Source: Oidiodendron maius Zn
Lineage: Eukaryota; Ascomycota; Leotiomycetes; Myxotrichaceae
Length of the DNA stretch: 64,000 nucleotides
NCBI GenBank assembly: GCA_000827325.1
Contig: KN832890.1
Location: 526,439 to 590,438, forward strand
Direction: 5' to 3'
Below the pieces are notes generated by a model. It saw nothing but the letters and a program-made list of their open reading frames with translations. It did not search any database and was not told the DNA's origin. Of the stretch, positions 6,845 through 56,452 are shown piece after piece (the first letter of the stretch is position 1; each line of letters begins with the position of its first letter). The translations under genes were made by a program, and so were the position numbers.

Positions 6845-7212
6845 TGCCGTTGGCCTTCATCCTGTTCGCTTTGGATTTCCAATGAATGACCAGGCTTCAC
6901 GACTTGAAACCTCCACAGCTGTCATACAGGCAAGAAATAAAATATCATAGTAGATAAAGCCTCGTTGACTGGCATCCACCTGAAGCTAAGCATTTTGAGT
7001 AGCTTATGCCGCTTTGTTTTCGACAGATCTCCTGCTGCACGTAGACGCAATGATTCTCCTGGTCCATGGCTCGCCTGCTTGGATGATAATGTCCCGCAAC
7101 TTTCCTATATCCTACAAGAACCTTCGAATACATTATCCTAACCGTCGCTGGATCAGACTGATATTCGAAGAGAGAGCACAGGCCCCAAATAGTAGTTAGA
7201 GCTGGCAATTAA
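6845..7212. other. Intergenic, no gene seen
   Basis: A gene-poor gap lies between the broken regulator and the last decayed TPR unit of the NLR gene. No convincing frame is present. The missing 5' part of the regulator is not recognisable here. Confidence 0.4.
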
Positions 7213-7302
7213 GTCATAGAATTGTCCGTACCAAGAGCCTTCTCGTAGCTTTGCGGCGCCCGCTGGAGCATGTCCTCGGCCTCAGTCGACTTGCCCTAGT
7301 GC
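7213..7302 (-). pseudogene. Decayed eleventh TPR unit beyond the NLR stop codon
   Basis: Beyond the stop of the NLR gene the sequence still matches a TPR unit in another frame: the minus strand reads KSTEAEDMLQRAPQSYEKAL before a further stop near 7213. Compared with neighbouring units, the DNA at the stop (CTCTAAGCAC) looks like CTCTATAAGCAC with two bases lost, which creates the present stop codon. The array was therefore at least one unit longer, and the receptor now ends eight or nine residues into unit eleven. Confidence 0.7.
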
Positions 7303-10300
7303 TTAGAGAAACCCTAAATTGTTGACCGTATTGATTGTCAACCTGTGCTCAAGTCCAAGGGCCTTCTCGTAGCCTTGCAACGCCCGCTTATACATTTCTT
7401 TGGCCTCGGTAGGCTTGCCCTGGTGCTTATAGAGGAATCCTAAGCTATTAACTGTATTAAGCGTCGATATGTGCTCAGAACCAAGATTCTTCTCTCTCCC
7501 TTGTAGCGCCTGCTGGAGCATTCCCTCGGCCTTGGTCAGCTTACCCTGTTCTACATAGAGTGTCCCTAAGTTGTGGACTGTATTAAGCGTCGATGTGTGC
7601 TCAGAACCAAGCGTCTTCTCCCTCCCTTGTAACACCTGCTGATACATCTCCTCGGCCTTGGCCAGCTTTCCCTGATGCCTATAGAAAACCCCCAAGTTGC
7701 TGACTGCATTAAGCGTTGATATATGCTCGGGTCCAAGGGCTTTCTCCCTCCCTTGCAACACCCGCCGATACATCTCCTCGGCCTTGGCCAGCTTTCCCTG
7801 GTCCTTATAAAGGAATCCTAAGCTGTTGACTGTGTCAAGTGTCGATTTGCGTTCAGAACCAAGCGTCTTCTCTCTCTCTTGTAGCGCCCGCTGGAGCATC
7901 TCCTCGGCCTTGGTCAGCTTACCCTGGTCTACAAAGAGGTTCCCTAAGTTGTGGACTGTATTAAGTGTCGATGTGTGCTCGGGTCCAAGTGTCTTCTCGT
8001 TCCCTTGCAGCGCTCGCTGGAGTATCTCCTCAGCCTCTGTCAGCTTTCCCTGGTCTATATAGAGGCTCCCTAAGCAGTCAACCGCGGTAAGTGTCCACTT
8101 ATGCTCAGGTCCAAGGGCCGTTTCAAAGCCTTGTAGTGCCCGCTGATACATCTCCTCGGCCTTGGCCAGCTTACCCTGGTGTGCATAGAGGGTCCCTAAG
8201 TTGTTAACTGTAGTAAGTGTTGATATGTTCTTAGGCCCAAGGACCTTCTCCCTCCCTTGTAGTGCCCGCTGATACATCTCCTCGGCCTTGGTCAGCTTTC
8301 CCTGGTCGTTGTAGAGTCTTCCAAAACAGTGAACCGTGATAAGCGTCGACCAGTGCTCAGTACCAAGTGTCTTCTCGTTCCCTTCTAGTGCCCGCAGGAG
8401 CATCTCCTCGGCGTCAGCCAGCTTGTCCTGATCTAAGTAGAGGATACCTAAGCAGTTAACTGTATCAAGCGTCAATATGTGCTCAGGTCCAAAAGCCTTC
8501 TCCCTCCCTTGCAGCGCCCGCTTATACATCTCCTCGGCCTCAGCCAGCTTGCCCTGGTCTCTATAGAGGAGCCCTAAGTTGTGGTATGCCCAATCCATAT
8601 CATCGTCTGTAACTAAGTCGTTGAACACTATATATGAACATCTGGCTGCATGTTGAAGAAGCCGTCGTTGCGTTAGCCACGGCCGAACAGCCTCCTGTTC
8701 CGGGACATGGGCCCCTACAAGCTTCACAGCTACCTTAGCGAATTCGAAATTCCACTCCTGGTTTAAAATATGAATTGTCCATGAGTGAACGCATCCGTGA
8801 ATGCTATACCCTCTAGACTCGATTAATTCCTGTGAAGATATGTCTGCCTCTACTAGCCCGTGATCACATAATACTCGCATTACGCTATGGAAGCTTAACT
8901 CGTTTTTAACAAGCTGTCGTATCCATTTAGGTTGCTTGAAACTTCTATGGCGAAGAAGCTCGAACCAAAGATCTTGGTTGTCAAAATATGCCCATAGGCG
9001 GAGAAGCTTAGCTGATAGGCTATTCTGTTGTCTAACATTATCAAATGAAAGTTGCCATGTAGAGTAAAGAGTTCGGTCTTCATATGAGGTTAGCCTAGGA
9101 CTCGATTTCTGAAGTTCTGCCCACGATACCTTATATAGACGAAGATAATCTGGTAAACTTATAGCTACTTGATAGAGATAAGCGCCGGCTGTAGCTAGTG
9201 CAAGAGGAAGTCCGTCTAACTCCTCTGCAAGCCTTATAGCATCAGGATCTAATATTTCTATTAGTTAAGTTATTTAATTATAATTACGGAAATTCCTTAC
9301 TATCTCTTAGTCCTTCTCGTCTTGATATATGTAATAAAATCTCGATACTATCATTTATATTTTCCAACTTTCTGACTGGGATAAGACGATCAATTTGAAC
9401 TTGTGATGATCTAGTAGTGATGATAACAGATCCCTGATATGATTCCGGGAGAAAGTCACGGATATTTACTGCTGTAGAATCTGTGCTGCCCGGAAATTTT
9501 GGGTTATCGTAGTTGTCATATATCATCAGCCAGCGGATATTATTAGGAAGACTTAGCCATGCCTTGACAGCATCAGTCACTTCGTTCAACCCATTTACGT
9601 CCACACTGCTTAGCCTACTTGCCAATGGGTGTTCTTGTAATATCTGCTTCGCAGATTTGGCAAAGCTCTGCTTCAGAGAGTCCTCGTCCTTAATGTTGAG
9701 CCAGAATATAGCTGAGTAGCTATTCTTATATCGCTTCATATATGCTATAGCAAGCTGGGTTTTGCCGATTCCTCCGAGCCCGTGAAGAACAACCGTACGG
9801 CGACTGCCGTCACCGTGAAGTTCCTTGTGCATTTCCTCTAGCTCCTTCTCTCTTGCCACAAAGTGATAGATATCAGAAGCATCAGATAGACCAAAGGGTA
9901 CTGAAAAGTCTTCGTATTGAATTCCTAGACCAGTTAATGCCATCCACATTTGACAACTTTATCTTAATTAAGAGAGTTATTAAGCAACCTACCCTTCGAC
10001 GCCTTATCAATCTCTTCCCGGAGCCGTCTAAACGCGCTATCTCTCCCTTCGCCATATATAAGCGGCATATGGACGTCAAAAATTCCCAATAGCGAATAAG
10101 CTGTGTCTTCTTTACGTGTAGTCTCACGTTTTTCTGCCCATGATAGTCGCTCGGTAATGCCAAAGTTAGACAAGGCACCTCCACGAAGAACCTTGATGGG
10201 TATTCCGGTTATCTCATGGATATATCGCTCTAGAGACGTCTTATTGCCTAGTTGCTCACCCTCTGTAGAGAAGAACTCAACTGACGTCGGAGCAACAAGC

Positions 10301-10737
10301 TCCTGAAGTGTCCATCCTCGTGTAAACCACCTACTCTCCCGAAAGGCCGGTTCCCAATGCAGCTGGCCGTGTTTGCCGTCTTGGTTGGACATAGGTCCCG
10401 AAACATCAGAGAGATAAACATAGCATTTAGCCGCATTGTGGTACCAGCAGAACATAGAGTTAATAGCTTCTGAGAGTTCAGTATTGTCTGATTTGTCGAC
10501 ACAGCAGGTGTCTATCCAGAAATGTTGTAGGCCATCCCGTGCAGCCTGCTCTCCACAGAACTGAAGCTTTTTATATCCGGCTTTCGTATTCCCAGAGCCT
10601 TCTATTAAGTTTTTAAAGCTGACTTCATCATTATCACATCCCCAAGTATGCGAAAGAATCGCATAAGGCGGTATATCGATGACAATGTTACTAGTCAGGC
10701 TGAACTTGCCGTTGTCCTTAAGCTCCAAAAGCCGCAT
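7303..10737 (-). CDS. HET-NB-ARC-TPR NOD-like receptor
   Basis: This is a fungal NLR of about 1107 residues, a cytosolic immune or incompatibility receptor. Exons are 10737-9993, 9924-9301 and 9257-7303. Introns are 9992-9925 (GTAGGT..TAG, 68 nt) and 9300-9258 (GTAAGG..TAG, 43 nt), and all phases agree. The HET domain opens the protein (YAILSHTWG at 25-33, WIDTCCVDK near 75, RGWTLQELVAP near 142) and is the presumed cell-death effector. The NB-ARC follows, with P-loop GLGGIGKTQ, Walker B RWLMIYDNYDN, GSVIITTRSS and GLPLALATAGAYL. After a helical linker come ten 42-residue TPR units of the kinesin-light-chain type (NxLGxLYxxQGKLxxAEEM..). The units are very alike, as in fungal NLRs whose repeats evolve in concert. 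Nothing essential is missing except the truncated last repeat. The gene is transcribed away from a pseudokinase gene 797 bp upstream. Confidence 0.93.
7306..8610 (-). repeat. 126-bp tandem repeat encoding the TPR array
   Basis: Ten full copies of a 126-bp unit lie head to tail without interruption, each coding one 42-residue TPR. The phrase for QGKLxKAEEMYQRALQGREK recurs almost unchanged at the DNA level. The first unit is the most divergent, followed by units alternating Y and L at the position before QRAL. Variation is concentrated at a few codons (for example after the GPEH motif). The period is an exact multiple of three, so unequal crossing-over would change repeat number without breaking the frame. 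Confidence 0.9.
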
Positions 10738-11534
10738 TATGGAAGTGGTAGCATCAGAAGAGCTGGCATCTCAGGTAAACATATCTAGATTAGGATCCAC
10801 ATGACTTCACAACAAGGTTGGCATAGCAAAGATGAACTGGAATGTAAGAGTTCTAGAGGTGTCACTCAGAAACGAGGCGCAAGCCGTTCTCGTGACCTGG
10901 TCTACCTTGCAATCATCAAGGTGTTAGTCATTCCATGCAAAATCATGGAATTCAACTTTATAATATAAGGGTGTGGTTATAGAACCGACTTCAATGGAAA
11001 CGGCAAGAAGTGCCAAGTCCAAATTTGCGAAATCTTTGACCCCCAGATCATTACCCTTGAAATATAACGCTCCTTGTATTTTAAAAACTATCAAATTTCT
11101 ATCATCTTATACTTAATTAGTCACCATTAATCATGTCGAAATTTCGTGCTATACAAGTGTTATTAAGGTATAGAAAATTTAGAACTTAGACTACAAGTTG
11201 TTTTCCTAAGCCGAATTTATCTGTCAATAAATCAACTAATTAGCAAATTCTGAAGGAGAAAACGTAAAGTTGGGAAGTAGACTATAATATAAAGAAAGTC
11301 AGATAGCTACAAAAGTGTCGTTATATTTTTCATTCAGATTTTCGCATTCGCATCGAGTTTGCCAGTTCTGCTACGGGATTTTCGCTTCGCAGGGATGAGG
11401 GTCATAACAAGCCTCGCTTCCCGTTAAACAAGAGCTGCGCAGTTTGTTCCATATCACGTACCTACACAACAAAACCTTATACCTTTCCTCCAAGATTCCA
11501 ACATCATATCAGATCCACCCGCGATTCTACTAAC
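10738..11534. promoter_or_regulatory. Shared 0.8-kb divergent promoter region of the NLR and pseudokinase genes
   Basis: The two genes start 797 bp apart and point away from each other. The region is AT-rich in the middle (about 11050-11330), with no coding frame. A 27-bp dispersed repeat lies at 11371-11397, inside the pseudokinase leader side. A pyrimidine-rich stretch precedes the pseudokinase ATG. I see no TATA box that stands out. Co-regulation is an inference from geometry only. Confidence 0.5.
11371..11397 (+). repeat. 27-bp dispersed repeat, copy 1
   Basis: The 27 bases starting CTACGGGATTTTCGC and ending GCAGGGATG recur exactly at 26151-26177 in the same orientation, with partial similarity just beyond. 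The core contains the near-palindrome TTTTCGCTTCGC. Both copies lie next to HET-domain genes (5' of the pseudokinase/NLR pair, and 3' of the HET-ZZ gene). It may be the end of a transposable element, but no second end is recognised. Confidence 0.75.
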
Positions 11535-12408
11535 ATGAAGTCACTTAGCAATTTAGATTGGATCTTAAAGGATGGCGAAATCAGGGTTGGGCGATACGGG
11601 CCAGTCTTCCAGGCCATGAGAACAGATACGGGAGAGTTCATTACAGCAGAGCGGCTTAGACTGGAGGAGCCTAGTGACTCCTATGCATTGGAGAGCGTAG
11701 TGTCACATCTGCAAAGCAAGCAGATGAACCAAAGTGAACCAAATGTCGTCTCGTACTTGGGATATCGGCGCAGGGCGGACCACATCTTCATTCTCACCGA
11801 ACACTCGGCGGGCGGTACACTACGAGACTTTATTCAGAGGAGTGGCGCTGTCCCCCAGCCTCTCGTGCGTACCATTCTTCGCCAGATCGTGCTTGGCCTT
11901 GTGCAACTGCATAAGCACGGGTTTGCTGTGGTTTTCCTAGACTCGAAGAATATACTGATGGGGAATGATGGCGCTATTAAAATCGAGGCACCACTTCTCG
12001 ACGTGACCATCGCGGGACAACCACTACCATCTGTTGTCTTAACACTTCCCGAACTCCTACTAGGCCAACAAAACATGCGCAAGGCTGACGTATGGCTGCT
12101 TGGAATTGTCGCAGCCCAACTGCTCTCAGGGGATTGCAACGATTTAGCAGCTAGCTTAGCCAGCAATTTTGCAACACAGATTAAACAAAACGAAGGATCA
12201 GCATGGGAGCTTTTGATCCCTCACCATGTGACACGCAAGCTTGATCCGCAGGCATCGGATTTCTTACGTCAATGTCTTAGCATGTAAGTCTTCGTGCAAG
12301 AAAATTATCTCTTTGTGTAGTATCTGACATATTCTACCCAGAAATATTAACCAACGGCCAAGCATCTTTAATCTACAAGAGCATCTCTTCCTGAGTGCTG
12401 CGAAGTGA
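11535..12408 (+). CDS. Pseudokinase of STE11/MAPKKK-like fold
   Basis: Two exons, 11535-12283 and 12342-12408, with an intron GTAAGT..CAG, give 271 residues covering a kinase fold. Aligned by eye to STE11-type kinases, the glycine loop is reduced to VGRYGPVFQAM. The VAIK lysine is replaced (ITAERLRL, Lys to Glu). The HRD triplet reads VVF (LHKHGFAVVFLDSKNIL), and DFG reads APL (GAIKIEAPL). The three catalytic residues are therefore gone. The structural marks remain: the NIL asparagine, the PE of the APE motif, the KADVWLLG helix (DxWxxG) and the NQRPS arginine near the C-terminus. The selective loss of chemistry with fold kept argues for a maintained pseudokinase. It is divergent from the NLR, and its partner or function is not known. 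Confidence 0.85.
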
Positions 12409-12850: not shown

Positions 12851-13792
12851 ATGGCTACCGCGGTCGTTCCGATAACGATGTTGGCCCAAGCTGGGCTAGC
12901 CGCATCACTAGCACCATTAATACCAGTAATAGGTGGAGTAACAGCAATTGGAATAGTCTCATGGAAGGTGGTAGCGTGGTGGAATGCGTCTTCTGCGGCA
13001 GCGGCAGCGGCAGCGACAGCAACGAAGGCAGCGGCAGCGGCAGCAGCGAAGGCAGCAGCACTAGCAGCAGCAGAAGCAGCCAAGGTCGCAGCAGCGAAGG
13101 CAGCGGAAGCAGCAGTACTAGCAGCAGCAGAAGCAGCCAAGTTCGCAGCAGCAGAAGCGCTAGCAGTAGCAGGAACAGCAGCGGAGGCAGCAGTGGAAGC
13201 GGCTGCCGGGGGAGTAGCGGGAGCAGTATCAACATCGGCTCTAGTACTTATAGGAGGGGCGGTTGTTATAGTTGCTATCGGAGGAGCCTATTATCTAGTG
13301 AGTAAATCGATGTGGTCGTCGTATCCGTACTTACACTATCTCAAGTATTCTAGAAACAAGAAAACGAAGCTTAAAACGAAATCCAGAGGCTCCCCCAGAT
13401 CCTCGTCAGGTTCGAGCCCTAATGATCCGAACGATAGTAATAATGAGAAAAAGAGGAGAAGGAAAAAAGTGATTCTCATACCTAAAGAAAAGATGGAAGA
13501 GTTACTCCAGGAACATGGCAAAGAGATACGAGAGAAGTTGCAAAAGGCCGCCCCGAATCAAGTTGGCGAAGTTTGGAGAAACAAAGACTATCGCGTCGAT
13601 GTCGGAAATGAACACAAGCCGAATACTAAAAATTGGGATTTGCAAGTCAACAATAAAGCGTCAAATGCAGCGAAATCGCTAATCGATGGTGGACGTCGTA
13701 CACACAAGAAACTATTTAATGATGATTTTGCCCCGGGTACACTGCCAGATGAAGAAACCTGGAAGCAGAACATTCTAAAACAATTCGATTAA
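12851..13792 (+). CDS. Alanine-rich membrane protein with an unrecognised C-terminal module
   Basis: A single exon encodes 313 residues. The N-terminus (about 5-45) is hydrophobic and glycine-rich (PLIPVIGGVTAIGIVSWKVVAWW). Residues 48-125 are an almost pure Ala/Lys/Glu helical region made of near-repeats such as LAAAEAAK. At about 135-160 a second membrane segment follows (LVLIGGAVVIVAIGGAYYLV). A Ser/Pro/Asn linker with a KKRRRKK basic patch leads to a charged, globular C-terminal module of about 110 residues containing EVWRNKDYRVDVGNEHKP and NWDLQVNNKASNAAKSL. The layout, a membrane-active glycine/alanine part joined to a soluble module, looks like an effector or transporter of a payload, but I cannot name the module. 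The long frames on the other strand over the Ala region come from the GCA-rich composition. Confidence 0.72.
   Translation: MATAVVPITMLAQAGLAASLAPLIPVIGGVTAIGIVSWKVVAWWNASSAAAAAAATATKAAAAAAAKAAALAAAEAAKVAAAKAAEAAVLAAAEAAKFAAAEALAVAGTAAEAAVEAAAGGVAGAVSTSALVLIGGAVVIVAIGGAYYLVSKSMWSSYPYLHYLKYSRNKKTKLKTKSRGSPRSSSGSSPNDPNDSNNEKKRRRKKVILIPKEKMEELLQEHGKEIREKLQKAAPNQVGEVWRNKDYRVDVGNEHKPNTKNWDLQVNNKASNAAKSLIDGGRRTHKKLFNDDFAPGTLPDEETWKQNILKQFD
13039..13200 (+). repeat. GCA-rich imperfect tandem repeat inside the Ala-rich gene
   Basis: Runs of GCAGCAG-type codons carry a longer-period duplication. A block of about 60-65 bases beginning CTAGCAGCAGCAGAAGC near 13061 recurs near 13118, with few changes. 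It codes the repeated LAAAEAAKVAAAK / LAAAEAAKFAAAE segments and is a likely site of length variation. Confidence 0.6.
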
Positions 13793-23906: not shown

Positions 23907-26078
23907 ATGACGACCTTGCCATCAGATCTGCAGTCGATTGTGAGTGCAAATAGTGCAATATATCAAGAGTCTTTGACGGAGAATTCAATTCGAATCGTAG
24001 AGCTGCATTCTGGCCTCGAGGATGGGCCTATATCATGCAGCTTTACTGTAGTAGACCTGGTGAAAGCCGAGCCTTTCGAAGCCTTGAGCTACTGCTGGGG
24101 CAGTGTGGCTGCTGATAGACCCATCTTCTGCCACGGCCAACCATTCAGGCCCACAGAGAATCTATACGCAGCTCTTAAGCAACTACGTCTAACTTCGAGA
24201 GCACGCTATATGTGGATTGATGCTGTATGATGGCTTCACATCTATGAGCCCAGATAATTGCTAATCCTTTTCCATAATCAGATATGCATCAACCAGAATA
24301 GCATTCTCGAAAGAAACCAGCAGGTACCGCTGATGCGACAGATATACCACAAAGCGAAACAAGTCATTGTCTGGTTAGGAGGCGAAGATGATACCACGGC
24401 TTTGGCACTTGCAACTATGGAGAACATTTTTCAAAGATGCTGCTCATTGTGGTATGGTTGTGCTAGTAACGAGGAATGGCCCATGAACCTGGAAAACAAC
24501 GAAGAATATTGGCAGTCATTACGGGCGGATACTGTCAACAAAGTCTCACCTCAATGGCCAGACGATCCCAAGACCTGCACCAACGCCTTACAGGTATTCT
24601 TCCGAAGACCATGGTTTTCTCGAGTCTGGGTGATCCAAGAAGTTCAAGGATGTCCACATATTATCATGCAGGTTGGTGGAACTACTATAGCATGGGAAAT
24701 AGTCGCTTCAGCGGCAATATGGGTCGTTTACGGACTTACATCAGTTACTCATCTAACCGAACCTTACAAGTTTGGTGGATTTCTGCATACCGATTTGATG
24801 CAGCGAAAGCCGTTTACTACCAAGGAAGACGTACCATTTCTGGAGGTCCTGGATCGCTGTCGTGCCTTCAAGTGTACTATCGATAAAGACCGGATCTTCA
24901 CTTTGCTCCGGCACCCAGCAGCTCGCCTACTTCCAGCTAAAAATGAGCAGGAATCTGCAACAAAGGTGCTTCATCCTCTCCGCATTAACGTAGATCAAGA
25001 TCCATCACACTTTGATTTGAAAGTAGACTACAACATGACGCTGTTCGATATATACCGACAGATAGTTCTTGGCTCAATATCTGAAGGTCGCAGCCTCCAA
25101 GTGCTCAGTCACGCTTCTGAAGAATCTAAATATCGCGAGAACTATCCGACTTGGATGCCGGTTTGGCACACGATTGGTACTGCTCGGCACACCGGGCCAC
25201 GGCGGACGTTCCTGTATAACGCAAGCAGAGAGTATGAACCTCAGCTTCGCACCTTCACGAACCCTATGCTGCTCGGTCTAGGTGGCCTTGTAGCTGGAAC
25301 AGTGACGCAAACGGGCATTAACATTGTCTTATCCGATCGAAAAGTGCCCCAGGCAGAGGGAATCAGCCATGGAACAACTTTAGCAGAGATGCGAGAGATT
25401 TCTAGATTGGTTGTACGTGATTGTTGGCAACCAGAGGATAATTGGCTTCAAGAAGCAGTTTGTCGTACTTCTTCACAGCCCACTACGCATTTTGAAGACT
25501 TCTGTGCTTTCGTCACCGAGAGGTTGCAGAAGAATCCAGGGCCCACTCTCCTATCGCTACATGGAAAGTGGTGTAATCTCTGCATGACAAGACACGTCGC
25601 ATCACCCGCTAGTGGCTTTGACGAAGTCATTGAAATCTTGCATTGCAATATTTGTTACGACTTCGACATGTGCAAAGATTGTCGTAGGTCTGGCCATACC
25701 TGCCCCGGTCAACATGAGCTTTACCCACATCCAATTCCGAGCATGTTCTGTCGCCTGGACGAGCAAACACGTTCTATGCTAGACGAGCACAAAGGCAAGG
25801 GTAACTCGAAACGCTTCGACACAGGCGCAAAGCAATCATTCGACGGGAAGTGTTTTGTCAAATTAGACAGCGGGCTCCTTGGTGTGGGACCAGACACCAT
25901 TCGCGCAGGGGACCTAGTGGTTATTTTCTTTGGTAGCAGAGTACCATTCATTCTGAGGCAGCATGGAAACTTTTACGTCCGTCTTGGAGAGTGCTATATT
26001 CATGGCATAATGGACGGTGAAGCTATTGATGATTGGCGCGAAGGGAGGTTGGGAGAGAAAGACTTCGTATTGGCATAA
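23907..26078 (+). CDS. HET-domain protein with an internal ZZ-like zinc finger
   Basis: Exons 23907-24224 and 24282-26078 (intron GTATGA..CAG) encode 704 residues. The N-terminal HET domain shows FEALSYCWGS, MWIDAICINQ (formed across the intron), KQVIVWLGGEDD and RPWFSRVWVIQEV. HET proteins of this kind commonly trigger growth arrest or cell death on non-self contact. Near residues 550-600 lies a cysteine-rich module, WCNLCMTRHV, HCNICYDFDMCKDCRRSGH, with the C-x2-C pairs and final His of a ZZ-type finger. The tail has LGVGPDTIRAGDLVVIFFGS and the FILR...GECYIHGIMDGEA signature shared by many HET proteins. No break is seen. Confidence 0.92.
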
Positions 26079-26538
26079 GTTATAAGACTTGAGATGCCTA
26101 GAGTGTGGATTTGTCTCGGCCCCTCGTTGCCCAAGGACAGATATAAGCTACTACGGGATTTTCGCTTCGCAGGGATGGGGGTTAGTAAAATATTAAGATG
26201 TGAGGCAAATTTATTTTAACCGTTTACCCGGCGATTTACGAAAAACATTCGCTGTTTTAAATTTCCATCGCGGGTTTGGTGGTCCTTGAAGTTCCATTTG
26301 GTGAGATTATGCATACGGGCAAATTTACTCGAACTCCCAACCATGGGAAGCAAAAGCGTTACTTTAAATTTTTTTTAAAAGAAAAAAAGATGGAAAAGGG
26401 GATTTCTAGAAGCTATTTATAGTGGTGGGCTAATCTAATAGTATGATAAAGGGTGGGCAATCATATGCCACTACCCGTTGGAGTCTAATCTTTCCACGAG
26501 AACCGCTGCAGCATGGACCTTAGGAGTCTTAAGAAGGT
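26079..26538. other. Intergenic with the second 27-bp repeat
   Basis: This 3' flank contains the dispersed 27-bp repeat, then AT-rich sequence with an A-rich run near 26380. No gene is seen. Confidence 0.45.
26151..26177 (+). repeat. 27-bp dispersed repeat, copy 2
   Basis: This is an exact match over 27 bases to 11371-11397, in the same orientation, 73 bp after the stop of the HET-ZZ gene. It is followed by GGGG, as copy 1 is by AGGG. See copy 1. Confidence 0.75.
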
Positions 26539-40351: not shown

Positions 40352-42704
40352 TCGCATTCGGTAATCCTATGCTTGGTTTATATTTACTTAAACGAAATTG
40401 CAGGTAGACATAGTTGAAATGAAGATTTAATATGGATAATACAACCTGCAATGGCTTGTTGGCACAGAGAAGTTGTGTCCAAATACTGCACTTATGCCCC
40501 CCGACACCTTCATTCCACTTTTCGATATATGCTTTGTTCTTGAGACAAGAAACCATTTCTTTTGATATGATCAGCCTGAAAGTTCTCATCACAGTCCAAC
40601 ATGCCAATATTAGTCGCACCATTGAGGGCATGGGTTGAATCACTTTGAATGGTGAATGTGGTCTTCAGGAATCATCGTTGCAATATGTCAGCAGGTAAAG
40701 CTTGGAAAGAAATAAAGCCAAGATTATGTACCCTTATTTCATGCTCTCATCTTGCGAATATGAATATAGCAAGACTTCATTTATATTATTTATAGGAAGA
40801 TAAATAGAAGATCACAAGGCAGATAAGTCCTTGGAGTAGGATTGTGGAGTACTTTCGCAGAGCTAAAATGAATGTGACAGATCATAGAATGCATATGCTG
40901 ACTGCGATCCCCTTAAGGTGGCTAATGGATGAAGCGCTGTGGATGGCGAGCGAGTGCGCGGCAATATAATGCTCTTCCCTTCCTTTTTTATGAAATTGCC
41001 TTGCTCCTTACTAAATACGAAATTGAATGCGGACGTCTTGAAAAATATGATGAATTAATATTGAAAGACTGTCGCACTTCGAGAAAATACAGAAGCGTTG
41101 GCCGGCTCAGCTCCTTCCGAAGCCGGTCCACGGTTCAGTTCATCAGAATTAGGTGGTTGGTCTGTCTTCAGGAGCTTAATGCCAACTATAACAGTTCCCC
41201 TTGTAATTAACACGACTCTCCCTAGATACTATTATGAGTCAGCATTCTTTTATTGCCACCTAAGCTGCTTTACTACGAGGTCTCACAGACTCGCCAAAGT
41301 CATGTAAGGGGCCGTGTTTTCGGTAAAGATTGGTATTTCGATTTGAGCATATAAGGACGTGTGCTCCTTTCATTGCGTTCCAAGAGACTTTACTACATAT
41401 CTTCAGCGATGTTCTCGTTCATTTCTCATGCTAAGACGGCCGTGGGCTCACGTAGCATAAACAGCACCTAGGACCCATTGTACCACATGACGCTGATAAA
41501 CCTTGAACTGTAAGTCGTTAATCTTATGAACTCTCCTTGTCGCAATCAATGACTATTCACTTGCTGAAATTTGGCTCCGAGGTAATGCTTAAGGGATTCT
41601 AAGAAATAGAATGAATTGTCACAATCCTGAACTCTGAACTTATACTCTTGCATTGTGGCTTTGTCGAGCTTGAAAGATAATTTCTCCAACGTGTTGGTTC
41701 AGAGTCATCGGCCCATGTGCGATCAGTCTGCAGCCTTTTACAACTTTAACATCCAAATACTCAGCATCATTACCTTGACTGCAAGTTCATAACGGCCTCA
41801 CCCCGCTTTAATCCCCGCAAATTTCGATGTCATTTGGAGGGTTAAAATCCAGTATACCCGTCACTTATTCGCACATGACCATCTGATATGAGTGCATCGC
41901 CTCCTCTTGTAGTGAGTTAGTTGATATCAGGAAGCGGGAATTCAGTCTGATGCAGAATCTGACTCTGCAAATACTTTGCGTGGCGCTGCTTTGAAGGGGA
42001 ATTGGAACTAGCGGTTTGTGCTTCAGAGACTGTTTGATGCGGGACTCGATGTTGCTTTTGCTCAATACCGGTAAGCTCTACACTGAGATTTCTAGGTCCT
42101 GTTCACCCACGCATGGATGTCTTGATTTTGACATATGCGCGACCTACTACCTCAAATTTTGCGCGTACAGTGTTGGCAGTCCCGTTTTGTCCCTCATCAA
42201 TTACACACTTCGGCCATGTCTACCTGCTAACCTGATCCAGGACCAGAACAGCCGGCGCAAACTCTTATTGCCTAGGAGTCAAGTTTTGCTGACGTCTCTC
42301 ACTATCAGCCTAACATCCTACTTGTGTGGTTTATTGTCCCAGCACGTCAGTAAAAGAACAGGACTAGCCCATTCCAAAATTGGTCTCAAGGCAGATACGC
42401 GTTCTATTATAGATCCCAATTAATCCGGACGAACGTTGATACCGACTTTTATGCTGCATTGCGCCAGTTTGATCATGACAACACCCATGGCCTTCTCACA
42501 CCAGCTGGTGGGTGCCTGACAAATATGAAAACAGGCCACAACCGCAGTTTCCGGCTTTACGCGGGGTCTGGCCATACGCGCACAGACCAAAACAAGCCGG
42601 GCGCATCTGACGTCGCAGCTGACGCGACAACACAGTTCGTAAACTTATATTCGGAGACACTGACATTTCTTCTCAATTTATGCTCTTTGCAGCCAGATAT
42701 CGAA
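40352..42704. other. Long gene-poor stretch
   Basis: No gene is supported. The longest frame (42016-42423) has no recognisable content. The right end is the upstream region of the Helo-like gene, with CTTTGC and pyrimidine-rich sequence just before its ATG. Confidence 0.45.
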
Positions 42705-43999
42705 ATGACGGATCCAGTGAGTGCGGCTTCGGGGATCCTGACCCTAGTGGTGTTTGCTTTCCAGTCAAGTAAGATTCTTTACGAGACAATTTCGAGCTTT
42801 CAGAGTAGCCAGAGGACGGTCCGTGAGCTTAAGGAAGGCTTGGTAGCGCTAAATGAGGCCTTGGAATCACTTCAGCAGACAGTTGCGACTACTGATGTGG
42901 ATTTTTCGAGTCTTGAGCTCCCGCTCCGTCGATGCGGCAAAGCTTGTGAAGACTTCACCAAGGTAATCGAGCAGTGTTCAAAGCACTCAGGTGGATCTAG
43001 GACGAGCTTCAGAGACTGGGCAAAGTTAAGATACATGGGAGATGATATTACTGGATTTAAAAATATGCTGGAAAGCTATAAATCTACTATCATCATTGCT
43101 CTCGGCGACGCAAACGTGTAAGTCGTGCTGTATCTATGCCACTCCTCGTCGCTCTAACCTTCCACCACAGGCGCACCTCCGCTATCACTTCCAATTTTTT
43201 GAAGGAATTTAAAGACATAATCGCGAACACAACTTCTGACCTAAATGAGCATCTTCAAGCCATTGATACTAAGCTACAGGCTCTCTCTCTCCAAGGCCCA
43301 ACCATTTCTGATGAAGACGTGACAGAACAAAGACGGATACAGGAAGAGAAACAGAGTGCAGAACAGTGTCTGAGTATCTGTGCTGCTGTCTCTGCCCACA
43401 TAGAACAATTTCAGTCTTCCAATGTATTCGAGAACATAGCATCGCCTCCAGATAGTTACCGAGCGACTCTTAACCCCCCGAAGAATCCCGATTCGGCCCA
43501 GCTATTCACTATCGGATCCCTAAAAGCGTGTAGAGAGACGATGGATAGCTCGACTACCTGGCTTAGAAAACACCTACAAGATCTCGATAGCAAGCTAGCT
43601 GCTCTTCGGGGACCGCCAAAACAAATATCAACTGTACAAGCCGCCGAGCAAGAAAGAATACGGGAGGAAATTGAGAGCGTTAAGCAGTGCTTGACGATAT
43701 GCGCGAATGCCTCAGAGCTAGCGCAGCAAGAACGTGTCAATATCTTTGAAGATGTCTCTATGGCTGATGACGGCCACCAGGTGATCGTTTCAACACTTGG
43801 AGATCTAATCTTAGCTAGGCGCGTGACTGCTGGCGCTAGGTCGATGCAGCTTATGGGGCAGATGTCTGATGATTCTCTTCAGCAGCTCTCACAAAATTTT
43901 GGACAATCTTCCGAGGAGAAAAGAGCTAAACTGGATGCAGGAAGCGAATTTACGGAGCGATATGGGGAAGGATGGAAGCTGAATCCACGAAGCTCGTAA
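42705..43999 (+). CDS. Helo-like_N domain protein (azaphilone-cluster protein L type N-terminus)
   Basis: Exons 42705-43117 and 43171-43999 (intron GTAAGT..CAG) encode 413 residues. The N-terminus reads MTDPVSAASGILTLVVFAFQ, then SSFQSSQRTVRELKEGLVAL, LRRCGKACEDF and SRTSFRDWAKLRYMGDDITG. These are the hallmark segments of the PF17111 family, a helical domain related to the HeLo death-effector fold. Two later segments repeat each other: TTSDLNEHLQAIDTKLQAL and WLRKHLQDLDSKLAAL, each followed by an EQ(E/R)RI(Q/R)EE-type helix and a QCL(S/T)IC motif. That indicates an internal duplication of a coiled-coil unit of about 140 residues. No ankyrin, NACHT or other sensor domain follows, so it is a stand-alone helical protein. 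The function is not established. Confidence 0.85.
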
Positions 44000-50936: not shown

Positions 50937-52288
50937 AAAGAAAAGTTTTCAGAAACCATGATCGTTGTAAAGATCAAAAAGTGCGTGCAACTCAGTGTGC
51001 AAAGTGCGGGGAAATTGTTTGGAAAACTTGAGAGGAGAAGAGAAGAGAAAGGAGAATGGAAATCAAGGACGGGGGAAGGTATACGTGAAATCTGTTTACA
51101 TATTCCTTCCCTATAGAGAAGCTACGGTGGGGAGGAGGGGTTGTAGGTTTCGAATGGCAAGTGCGCAAGCCCACCAGGTGAACCGCGAGGACTAACGAAA
51201 GCCTGAGGAAACTGGGTGAAAGCTAACTGGGATCCTAATTGACAGTCTGTGGGATTGTGGTTTGTGTCAATAAACTTGAGGAGGTAGCAGGGAGTGCTCG
51301 ACGGGTGGAGGAAGTGCTCGGCGGGTGGAGGAAGTGCTCGGCGGGCGGAGGAAGTGCTCGGCGGGTGGAGGAAGTGCTCGACGGGTGGAGGGAGTGCTCG
51401 GCAGTACGGCCGTTGAAGAGAGCCAGAACTTGGCTTTAGGTGTAACGGCGAGGAACTTCGGAGGGATCATGGCGCCGACTAGAAGGTACTCTATGAAGTT
51501 AGCTATCAGGCAGGGCGATGGTGAAGGGTAGACACAACTAGAGATCAACGAACGGGTTTAAAATCAAGGCATGAGGTGTGTGAGCCAGTCTATCGATGTC
51601 GAACGAGCGTGGCGATCTGACAGTCGATCGAGTTCATGGATGCTTAAGAAGTGGCCAAGAATAAGTAAAAACTGTGGGAATAAAGAGGCACTCAGCTGAA
51701 GGTGATCAGCAGGACTTGGTCAAGATCGTTGGGGACGACGTTGAAGACAAGGAAGCCACCGAGGCTCTGCCAGCCTCGCAGCCCAAGATCCCCGAGATCG
51801 ACGAGCACTGTTTTCGACTACGTGGAGTACGAGCTTAGTAGCTTGCTAGACGCCAGACAAAACCAACGCAGTACCGAGTTGTATGGGGCGAACATCCAAA
51901 CAGGTCGGATTTTCGGTTAAACGAAGACTACATACAGGTGTCGATGCCATGGCCGACTTGCGAACTATCCTCTCAGAACTTGGCTCTATAGACAGATATG
52001 GTCATTTTCCGAGTTCACAGCATGCGCTCTAGCCTGTACAAAGGCAGAAGATTATTCGACTACCTGGTTGATGCGTTCGATCTCGATAACCGCGCCTGGA
52101 TCACTGAAGATCAATTGAGAATCTCACTTAGCCCTATGTTAGTCGCCAAGCTTAAACGTAACTGAATGCCCCGTTGTCGAGATCTTGACGAACAGATTGC
52201 TAATGGAATACATCTCGAACAGTGTCTTCTCCCCATCCCTTGAGCCAAATACAGCGTGAGGTTCTTCTCAGACATTCAGCAACTCTGA
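50937..52288. other. Degenerate intergenic stretch
   Basis: No gene is supported. A plus-strand stretch at about 52020-52160 reads RLFDYLVDAFDLDNRAWIT and LSPMLVAKLKRN, plausible protein sequence, but without a start or recognisable family. The 20-bp minisatellite is listed separately. Confidence 0.4.
51294..51407. repeat. Minisatellite, 20-bp unit, five and a half copies
   Basis: The unit GTGCTCGGCGGGTGGAGGAA is repeated five times with single changes at three positions (A/G after CTCG, T/C in GGGTGG, A/G near the end), followed by a partial copy. The period is not a multiple of three, so it is unlikely to be coding. Confidence 0.88.
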
Positions 52289-54167: not shown

Positions 54168-54533
54168 TTAACTAATGTGAAGGATATTCGGGCATTCGGA
54201 TCCGAACGGGGGGTCGTTACTTGTATCAGCATTCGTCTTGCGCACACCTCTGGTCCACCATGGAAGATGCTGGACCTTAGCCTTCTCCAGACTCCCGAGA
54301 CCGAGGCATAACGCGTTATTAATAGAAATGCTTTGCTGAGGGCTGATTCTGTCTCTGATCTGTTTAACTAGCACCCCTCTTTGAGGTGATGCTTCCCACT
54401 CTTTGCAAAGCTCCTCTGCTTGTTCATTCAAGTCACGAAAGGCTTCAGGGCGAGGGAGGGAAACCTCCTTTAGGATGGCTTTGCTGGATTTACTGGACTT
54501 GCTTTTCTTTTTCCTGGATCTTGGAGGAGGCAT
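54168..54533 (-). pseudogene. N-terminal fragment of an SRR1-like protein
   Basis: The frame from 54533 begins with a basic stretch (PRSRKKKSKSSKSSK). It then reads PEAFRDLNEQAEELCKEWEA, LVKQIRDRISPQQSISINNA and LCLGLGSLEKAKVQHLPWW, the opening of the SRR1-like domain family. After WWTRG the match ends. The last codons and the stop come from the 35-bp direct repeat at 54176-54210, so the gene was cut there. About two-thirds of the domain is missing. Confidence 0.65.
54176..54210 (+). repeat. 35-bp direct repeat, copy 1
   Basis: The 35 bases beginning TGTGAAGGATATTCGGGC and ending CCGAACGGG recur exactly at 56274-56308 in the same orientation. The unit contains the palindrome CGGATCCG. Flanking bases differ. 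The pair brackets the SRR1 fragment and the 2EXR gene. Confidence 0.85.
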
Positions 54534-55817: not shown

Positions 55818-56452
55818 ATATGAATAAAGCTTACTAGTATGGCAAATAATACGTCCCTTGGCATTATTCCTTATAAACCGGAAACGTAGAAGCAATCTGT
55901 CATAGCGCTGGCGTGATCTCGCTTCAGCTAGTCACCTGACCAGCCTCCTGTATATATAGAGCTCTGGATCCCCAGCTCTCTTACTCTTCTTCTCTTTAGC
56001 TTGTTCTCTCGTTACAATAGTTGATAGTCAAATACACCTTATATCTTTATCTATATAGTCTATAGACTAAGATCCCTTTTTGACTTAAGCTATTATACTT
56101 ACTATATTTAGAAGGATAAGATAGTAAAAGAGAAGAAAGAGGTATATCTCAGCTGGGTTTTAGGTAGGTTGTTCTACCTGATCAGGTAGAGGAGTGACCT
56201 CTTAATAATAAAGAAGGGATTGCACTGATTCTACAGCTGCAGTTACAGACCTACACCTCAGAATCGAGGGGTGTGTGAAGGATATTCGGGCATTCGGATC
56301 CGAACGGGTGATCTGAATATCCGTAACGTAGCGAGTGGCGGCGCACTATATATATTGGGTGGTTATATGCAGCTTAGAACCTCTAGTCAAACTCAATAAC
56401 AACGATTCCACACACATACTGATGAATCCTTCGATCCTGTAACCTTTGACAA
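55818..56452. other. AT-rich stretch inside the cassette and copy 2 flank
   Basis: No gene is seen. A TATATATAGAGCTC promoter-like motif near 55953 is followed by pyrimidine-rich and AT-rich sequence that resembles a repeat end, but no family can be named. Copy 2 of the 35-bp repeat lies at 56274-56308. Confidence 0.4.
56274..56308 (+). repeat. 35-bp direct repeat, copy 2
   Basis: Identical to 54176-54210. Just after it, GATCTGAATATCC is nearly the reverse complement of the unit's own GGATATTCGG, so this copy can fold as a hairpin. That extra arm is absent at copy 1. Confidence 0.85.

Follow-up and report, generated by a model that had tools for sequence, protein, structure and literature searches.

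The stretch analysed here, hereafter the window, comprises 64,000 nucleotides of the ascomycete Oidiodendron maius Zn (assembly GCA_000827325.1, contig KN832890.1, positions 526,439 to 590,438 of the forward strand), and all coordinates given below are those of the window. Two genes lie head to head within it: a gene for a nucleotide-binding oligomerisation domain-like receptor (NLR) with HET, NB-ARC and tetratricopeptide repeat (TPR) parts, on the minus strand at 10737-7303, and a kinase-like gene on the plus strand at 11535-12408. Both genes look real, and they are probably two accessory genes that are neighbours rather than partners.

Domain architecture and repeat array of the receptor

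The model of the NLR gene, built on predicted splice sites, comprises three exons, interrupted by two introns (68 and 43 nt), and specifies a product of 1107 aa. Exon 1 (9993-10737), with the start codon at 10737, carries the HET domain, the putative executor (PF06985, 45.2 bits, E 1.6e-11; the best of two matching stretches covers residues 25-111). Exon 2 (9301-9924) encodes the P-loop part of the NB-ARC domain, with the P-loop GLGGIGKT at residue 297, and the match to PF00931 (37.2 bits, E 2.4e-9, residues 273-487) continues into exon 3 (7303-9257), which contains the remainder of NB-ARC and ten full 42-aa TPRs at about 8589-7330 (TPR_10, E 6.2e-105, 10 stretches). The HET, NB-ARC and TPR_10 matches all score above the curated Pfam cut-offs, which are 22.5 bits for PF06985 and 23.5 bits for PF00931. 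When residues 1-687 were compared with solved structures, the plant NLR Roq1 was the sole match, and a marginal one (two distinct sequences, E 0.04, residues 274-490). As predicted from these matches, the receptor is a HET-NLR of known fungal architecture. Indeed, its three-part domain order is that of the fungal HET-NB-ARC-TPR NLRs described by Dyrka et al. (2014; PMC4986451), where the combination appears in a table row for Botryotinia fuckeliana, and where NB-ARC is preferentially followed by TPRs, as it is here.

An earlier note on this DNA, made from the sequence without database searches, had described a complete HET-NB-ARC-TPR receptor. All three kinds of domain were found, but the word complete has to be given up, since the TPR sensor is shortened by a change of frame. 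The frame ends at a TAA codon (7303-7305), and the eight residues preceding it open an eleventh repeat. About two degraded TPRs follow past this stop in another frame of the minus strand (7077-7301; tblastn, E 2.6e-8), and one weaker alignment extends to 7005. This other frame is itself interrupted by stops, one at 7296-7298 and a second 28 codons further along, and sequencing error as the sole cause of the stop was rejected on these grounds. Over a segment of 25 residues, the degraded next repeat shows 44-60% identity with the ten intact repeats, compared with 56-84% (mean 70%) for intact pairs. Thus, the receptor once had a longer array.

The ten intact TPRs are 52-76% identical to each other (mean 64%, 45 pairs). 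Highly internally conserved arrays are defined by a repeat identity of 85% (PMC4986451), and an array of this type, with more than 85% identity over at least 100 aa, was rejected here, as all 45 repeat pairs lie under 85%. Compared with the NLRs of Dyrka et al. (2014), the receptor therefore falls short of the mark for high internal conservation, and its array is cut by a frame change. Positive selection has been reported at predicted TPR interaction surfaces in fungal NLRs (PMC4986451). Across all positions of the repeats analysed here, dN/dS (the ratio of nonsynonymous to synonymous substitution rates) was 0.32, which gives no indication of positive selection on the repeat as a whole, and the values of 0.77 at variable positions and 0.20 at the rest are circular, the positions having been picked by their own variability. 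The most variable positions of the repeat are 7, 10 and 38. Mean entropy at positions 3, 7, 10, 11 and 42, which we take to be the ligand-facing residues (canonical positions 2, 5, 9, 12 and 13), was 2.08 bits compared with 0.84 overall; the permutation value of 1.3e-4 is suggestive only, because the ligand-facing positions were chosen after the entropies had been seen.

The frame change and stop at 7303, the further in-frame stops beyond it and the degraded state of the next repeat would also fit a decaying NLR pseudogene, in which the loss of the last TPRs broke the receptor and any pairing with the kinase-like gene would be a relic. This is unlikely, given that 1107 codons are still open and include the HET and NB-ARC matches as well as the P-loop. 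Moreover, the number of TPRs at NLR loci differs widely among strains of Podospora anserina (PMC4986451), so that an NLR shortened to ten repeats may well still work.

The divergent kinase-like gene

The kinase-like gene consists of two exons (11535-12283 and 12342-12408), separated by a predicted intron of 58 nt, and encodes a protein of 271 aa. Residues 18-266 match the kinase domain PF00069 (92.6 bits, E 3.6e-26), and the score with PF07714 is lower (52.2 bits). The best solved match, among the best 60 of 845 distinct PDB sequences, is PAK1 (E 3e-17, residues 16-271). Three PDB alignments were examined, and the catalytic positions were read from the one with PAK1. In exon 1, the VAIK Lys is replaced by E39, the alphaC Glu by H58, the HRD motif by V132-V133-F134, with F134 in place of its Asp, the catalytic-loop Lys by D136, and the DFG motif by A152-P153-L154, with A152 in place of its Asp. 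Retained are the catalytic-loop Asn (N139), two of the three glycines of the Gly-rich loop, and the structural anchors APE Glu, DxW Asp and late Arg, the last of which lies in exon 2 together with the end of the kinase domain and the stop codon. The three residues whose loss, singly or together, marks a pseudokinase (VAIK Lys, HRD Asp and DFG Asp) have all been lost. As judged from the alignment, the protein is a predicted pseudokinase that has kept the fold without the catalytic chemistry. The claims of the earlier note that a kinase fold with all three of these residues replaced is encoded here, and that it is divergently transcribed 797 bp away from the NLR gene, were thereby borne out, the gap between the two genes (10738-11534) measuring exactly this length.

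The chance that 271 codons stay open at the local base composition is 1.4e-6, and in 2000 simulations of unconstrained substitution the frame survived in 6.9% at 0.1 substitutions per site and 0.9% at 0.2 per site. This suggests that the reading frame was kept by constraint, although a recent loss of function would escape the simulation test. An accidental open reading frame (ORF) was rejected on the basis of both results. The codon-usage score favours the annotated frame by a small margin (0.102, compared with 0.074 for the next frame). The AlphaFold2 single-sequence model of exon 1 had a mean pLDDT (predicted local distance difference test) of 33.4 and was unusable.

By description, the protein may be likened to the filamentous fungal kinases (Ffk) of Aspergillus nidulans, a set of 11 orphan, patchily distributed kinases for which pseudokinase status has been raised as a question (PMC3591445). 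They are orphan and kinase-like as is the protein described here, and any kinship would be putative.

Neighbours or partners

Adjacency alone is weak evidence for a functional pair, because 0.25-0.5 NLRs with a divergent kinase neighbour are expected per genome by chance, and 1-2 with a kinase neighbour in any orientation. This is a rough estimate that assumes random gene order and combines counts from different species, namely 40-77 per genome for NLRs and 131 out of 10,560 genes for kinases (PMC4986451, PMC12881547, PMC3591445). If 5-10% of the divergent kinase neighbours are pseudokinases, a share that was guessed, about 1-5 divergent NLR-pseudokinase neighbours per 100 genomes would arise by chance. 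On this rough reckoning, such neighbours are uncommon in one genome and expected in a wide scan.

As two accessory genes that happen to adjoin, the NLR and the pseudokinase would act separately. By analogy with studied HET-NLRs such as HET-E, ligand binding would fall to the TPR surface of the receptor, switching and oligomerisation to the NB-ARC domain, and the triggering of cell death to the HET domain. The end of the TPR array was lost through the frame change, and the receptor would be either a short allele or at the beginning of decay. The orphan pseudokinase, closest to PAK/STE-type kinases among the best 60 of 845 PDB sequences, would have been retained as a protein and would act through binding, not phosphorylation.

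Several observations weigh against mere neighbourhood. A pseudokinase with lost catalytic motifs and a kept fold would belong to the type that serves as a decoy in plants, and the diversity of the presumed ligand-facing TPR positions suggests that the receptor binds a ligand of some kind or did so until recently. In addition, the cell-death pathways of fungi often rely on clusters of two or three genes (PMC12881547, PMC9815663), and for this reason proximity weighs more for cell-death genes than for the average gene. In the HET-S/NWD2 and HELLP/PNT1 clusters (PMC9815663, PMC12881547), an NLR is likewise linked to a second gene, there at a cell-death locus, and PNT1 is an NB-ARC-TPR protein, an arrangement that the receptor shares. 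However, the NLRs of these clusters carry an amyloid motif and have a HeLo or HeLo-like executor as partner, whereas the receptor described here has a HET domain of its own and a pseudokinase as neighbour.

More broadly, linked partners are reported to be common among the cell-death and incompatibility systems of fungi. Another alternative, distinct from guard/decoy, is an allorecognition (incompatibility) or regulatory locus of two genes, where the pseudokinase would be an antagonist, an inhibitor or an allele-specific trigger of the linked NLR. One vic4 allele reportedly specifies a kinase-like protein and the other a NACHT-WD protein, which the literature searched did not confirm; vic4 is without a HET gene (PMC7849911). 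Such a locus is quite improbable here, given that few HET genes act in allorecognition, with 5 out of 125 in P. anserina (PMC10197012).

The earlier note had proposed a guard/decoy pair, in which the TPR array would contact the pseudokinase as a bait for foreign effectors or as a reporter of kinase tampering; a change in the pseudokinase would then set the NLR free, leaving the HET domain to kill the cell. The head-to-head placement 797 bp apart, the loss of catalytic residues from a protein that keeps its fold residues, and the diverse TPR surface positions are consistent with this proposal. Nevertheless, the truncation of the array is mild evidence against a well-maintained sensor, and a diverse array fits changing foreign ligands as readily as a fixed partner. 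A better score with PF07714 would be expected of receptor-like cytoplasmic kinases from plants, whereas the protein described here scores better as PF00069 and, among the best 60 of 845 PDB sequences, is closest to PAK1 and other PAK/STE kinases. The plant NLR ZAR1 is not known to be encoded next to its pseudokinases, which means that the two systems do not have adjacency in common, and it has a coiled-coil (CC) domain and leucine-rich repeats (LRRs), whereas the receptor of O. maius has a HET domain and TPRs. The likeness to ZAR1, which senses via ZED1 and RKS1 (PMC10561179), lies in an NLR and a pseudokinase as would-be components. Guard models have already been invoked for fungal NLRs, as for PLP-1/SEC-9 (PMC12881547, PMC10197012). 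Altogether, the contact between array and pseudokinase and the execution step that would follow from it are, taken jointly, decidedly improbable. Very unlikely is the more far-reaching idea of a first fungal NLR-pseudokinase surveillance unit, in which the TPR surface of a HET-NLR would read a pseudokinase bait, and which would have evolved independently of plant ZAR1/ZED1 and possibly be made up of three genes with the ORF at 12851-13792.

No described fungal NLR-pseudokinase pair was found in one open-access literature collection, represented mostly by titles and the beginnings of abstracts, in agreement with the earlier note, whose author knew of none. The nearest reported cases are proteins that combine a HELL domain with a kinase or pseudokinase domain, and fusions of kinase-like domains with gasdermin-controlling proteases (PMC12881547). 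The activators of fungal NLRs (PMC10197012) and the stimuli of fungal cell-death sensors (PMC12881547) are stated in the literature as an open question. If a fungal NLR did read a pseudokinase, plants and fungi would both have evolved sensing by decoys, and a ligand would be known for a fungal TPR receptor. At present, the locus is one clear candidate for NLR-pseudokinase pairing, and no more.

The downstream ORF and other features of the window

Downstream of the pseudokinase gene and on the same strand lies an orphan ORF of 313 aa (12851-13792, plus strand), with hydrophobic segments, an Ala-rich middle and a basic part. A GCN-type repeat at 12980-13220 encodes the Ala-rich stretch, and more than one frame is open there. 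The Pfam, NCBIfam and PDB searches assigned no family to the ORF, and a known toxin or channel was rejected, as matches reached only E 0.09. The coding status is doubtful, because the codon score is no better than that of another frame (0.090 compared with 0.099, and 0.022 compared with 0.081 when the Ala-rich part is left out). The AlphaFold2 single-sequence model was again unusable (pLDDT 47.3). As part of an NLR-pseudokinase locus, the ORF is an unproven candidate member.

Relatives were searched for with single-protein queries, which reach close relatives only. No relative of the pseudokinase, the orphan ORF, the HET exon or NLR exon 3 was found among viral contigs, nor one of the orphan ORF or pseudokinase exon 1 among bacterial and archaeal genomes, both sets being non-fungal and silent on fungal distribution. 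Within the window, tblastn revealed no second copy of the NLR or the kinase; a weak HET match at 23988-24377 (E 0.061) coincides with the start of a second HET-domain gene.

This second HET gene (24258-26078, E 1e-16) has a weak ZZ-type zinc finger match at ORF residues 462-483 (E 0.022). Farther along, two overlapping plus-strand ORFs at 42354-43999 jointly match positions 1-209 of PF17111 (HeLo-like/PigL_N), and possibly represent a HELL-type cell-death gene split by an intron or a frame change. Together, the second HET gene and the HeLo-like ORF pair fit an accessory region in which immunity genes are plentiful. Pfam was searched with 20 window proteins overall, a subset of the window ORFs; ten ORFs among them included genes for a sugar transporter, a Peptidase A4 and a Spherulin4 protein, and four of the ten were unmatched. 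The window contains no tRNA and no Rfam match at the gathering threshold.

The intergenic region between the NLR and pseudokinase genes includes a 35-nt element upstream of the pseudokinase (11368-11402) that recurs with 94% identity just downstream of the second HET gene (26148-26182). A core of 23 nt is exact at both sites, and none was found in 100 shuffles. Another 35-nt element, with an internal palindrome, occurs in two identical copies about 2 kb apart (54176-54210 and 56274-56308), and a short tandem repeat at 51289-51402 shows a 54-nt match at 93% with an offset of 60 nt.
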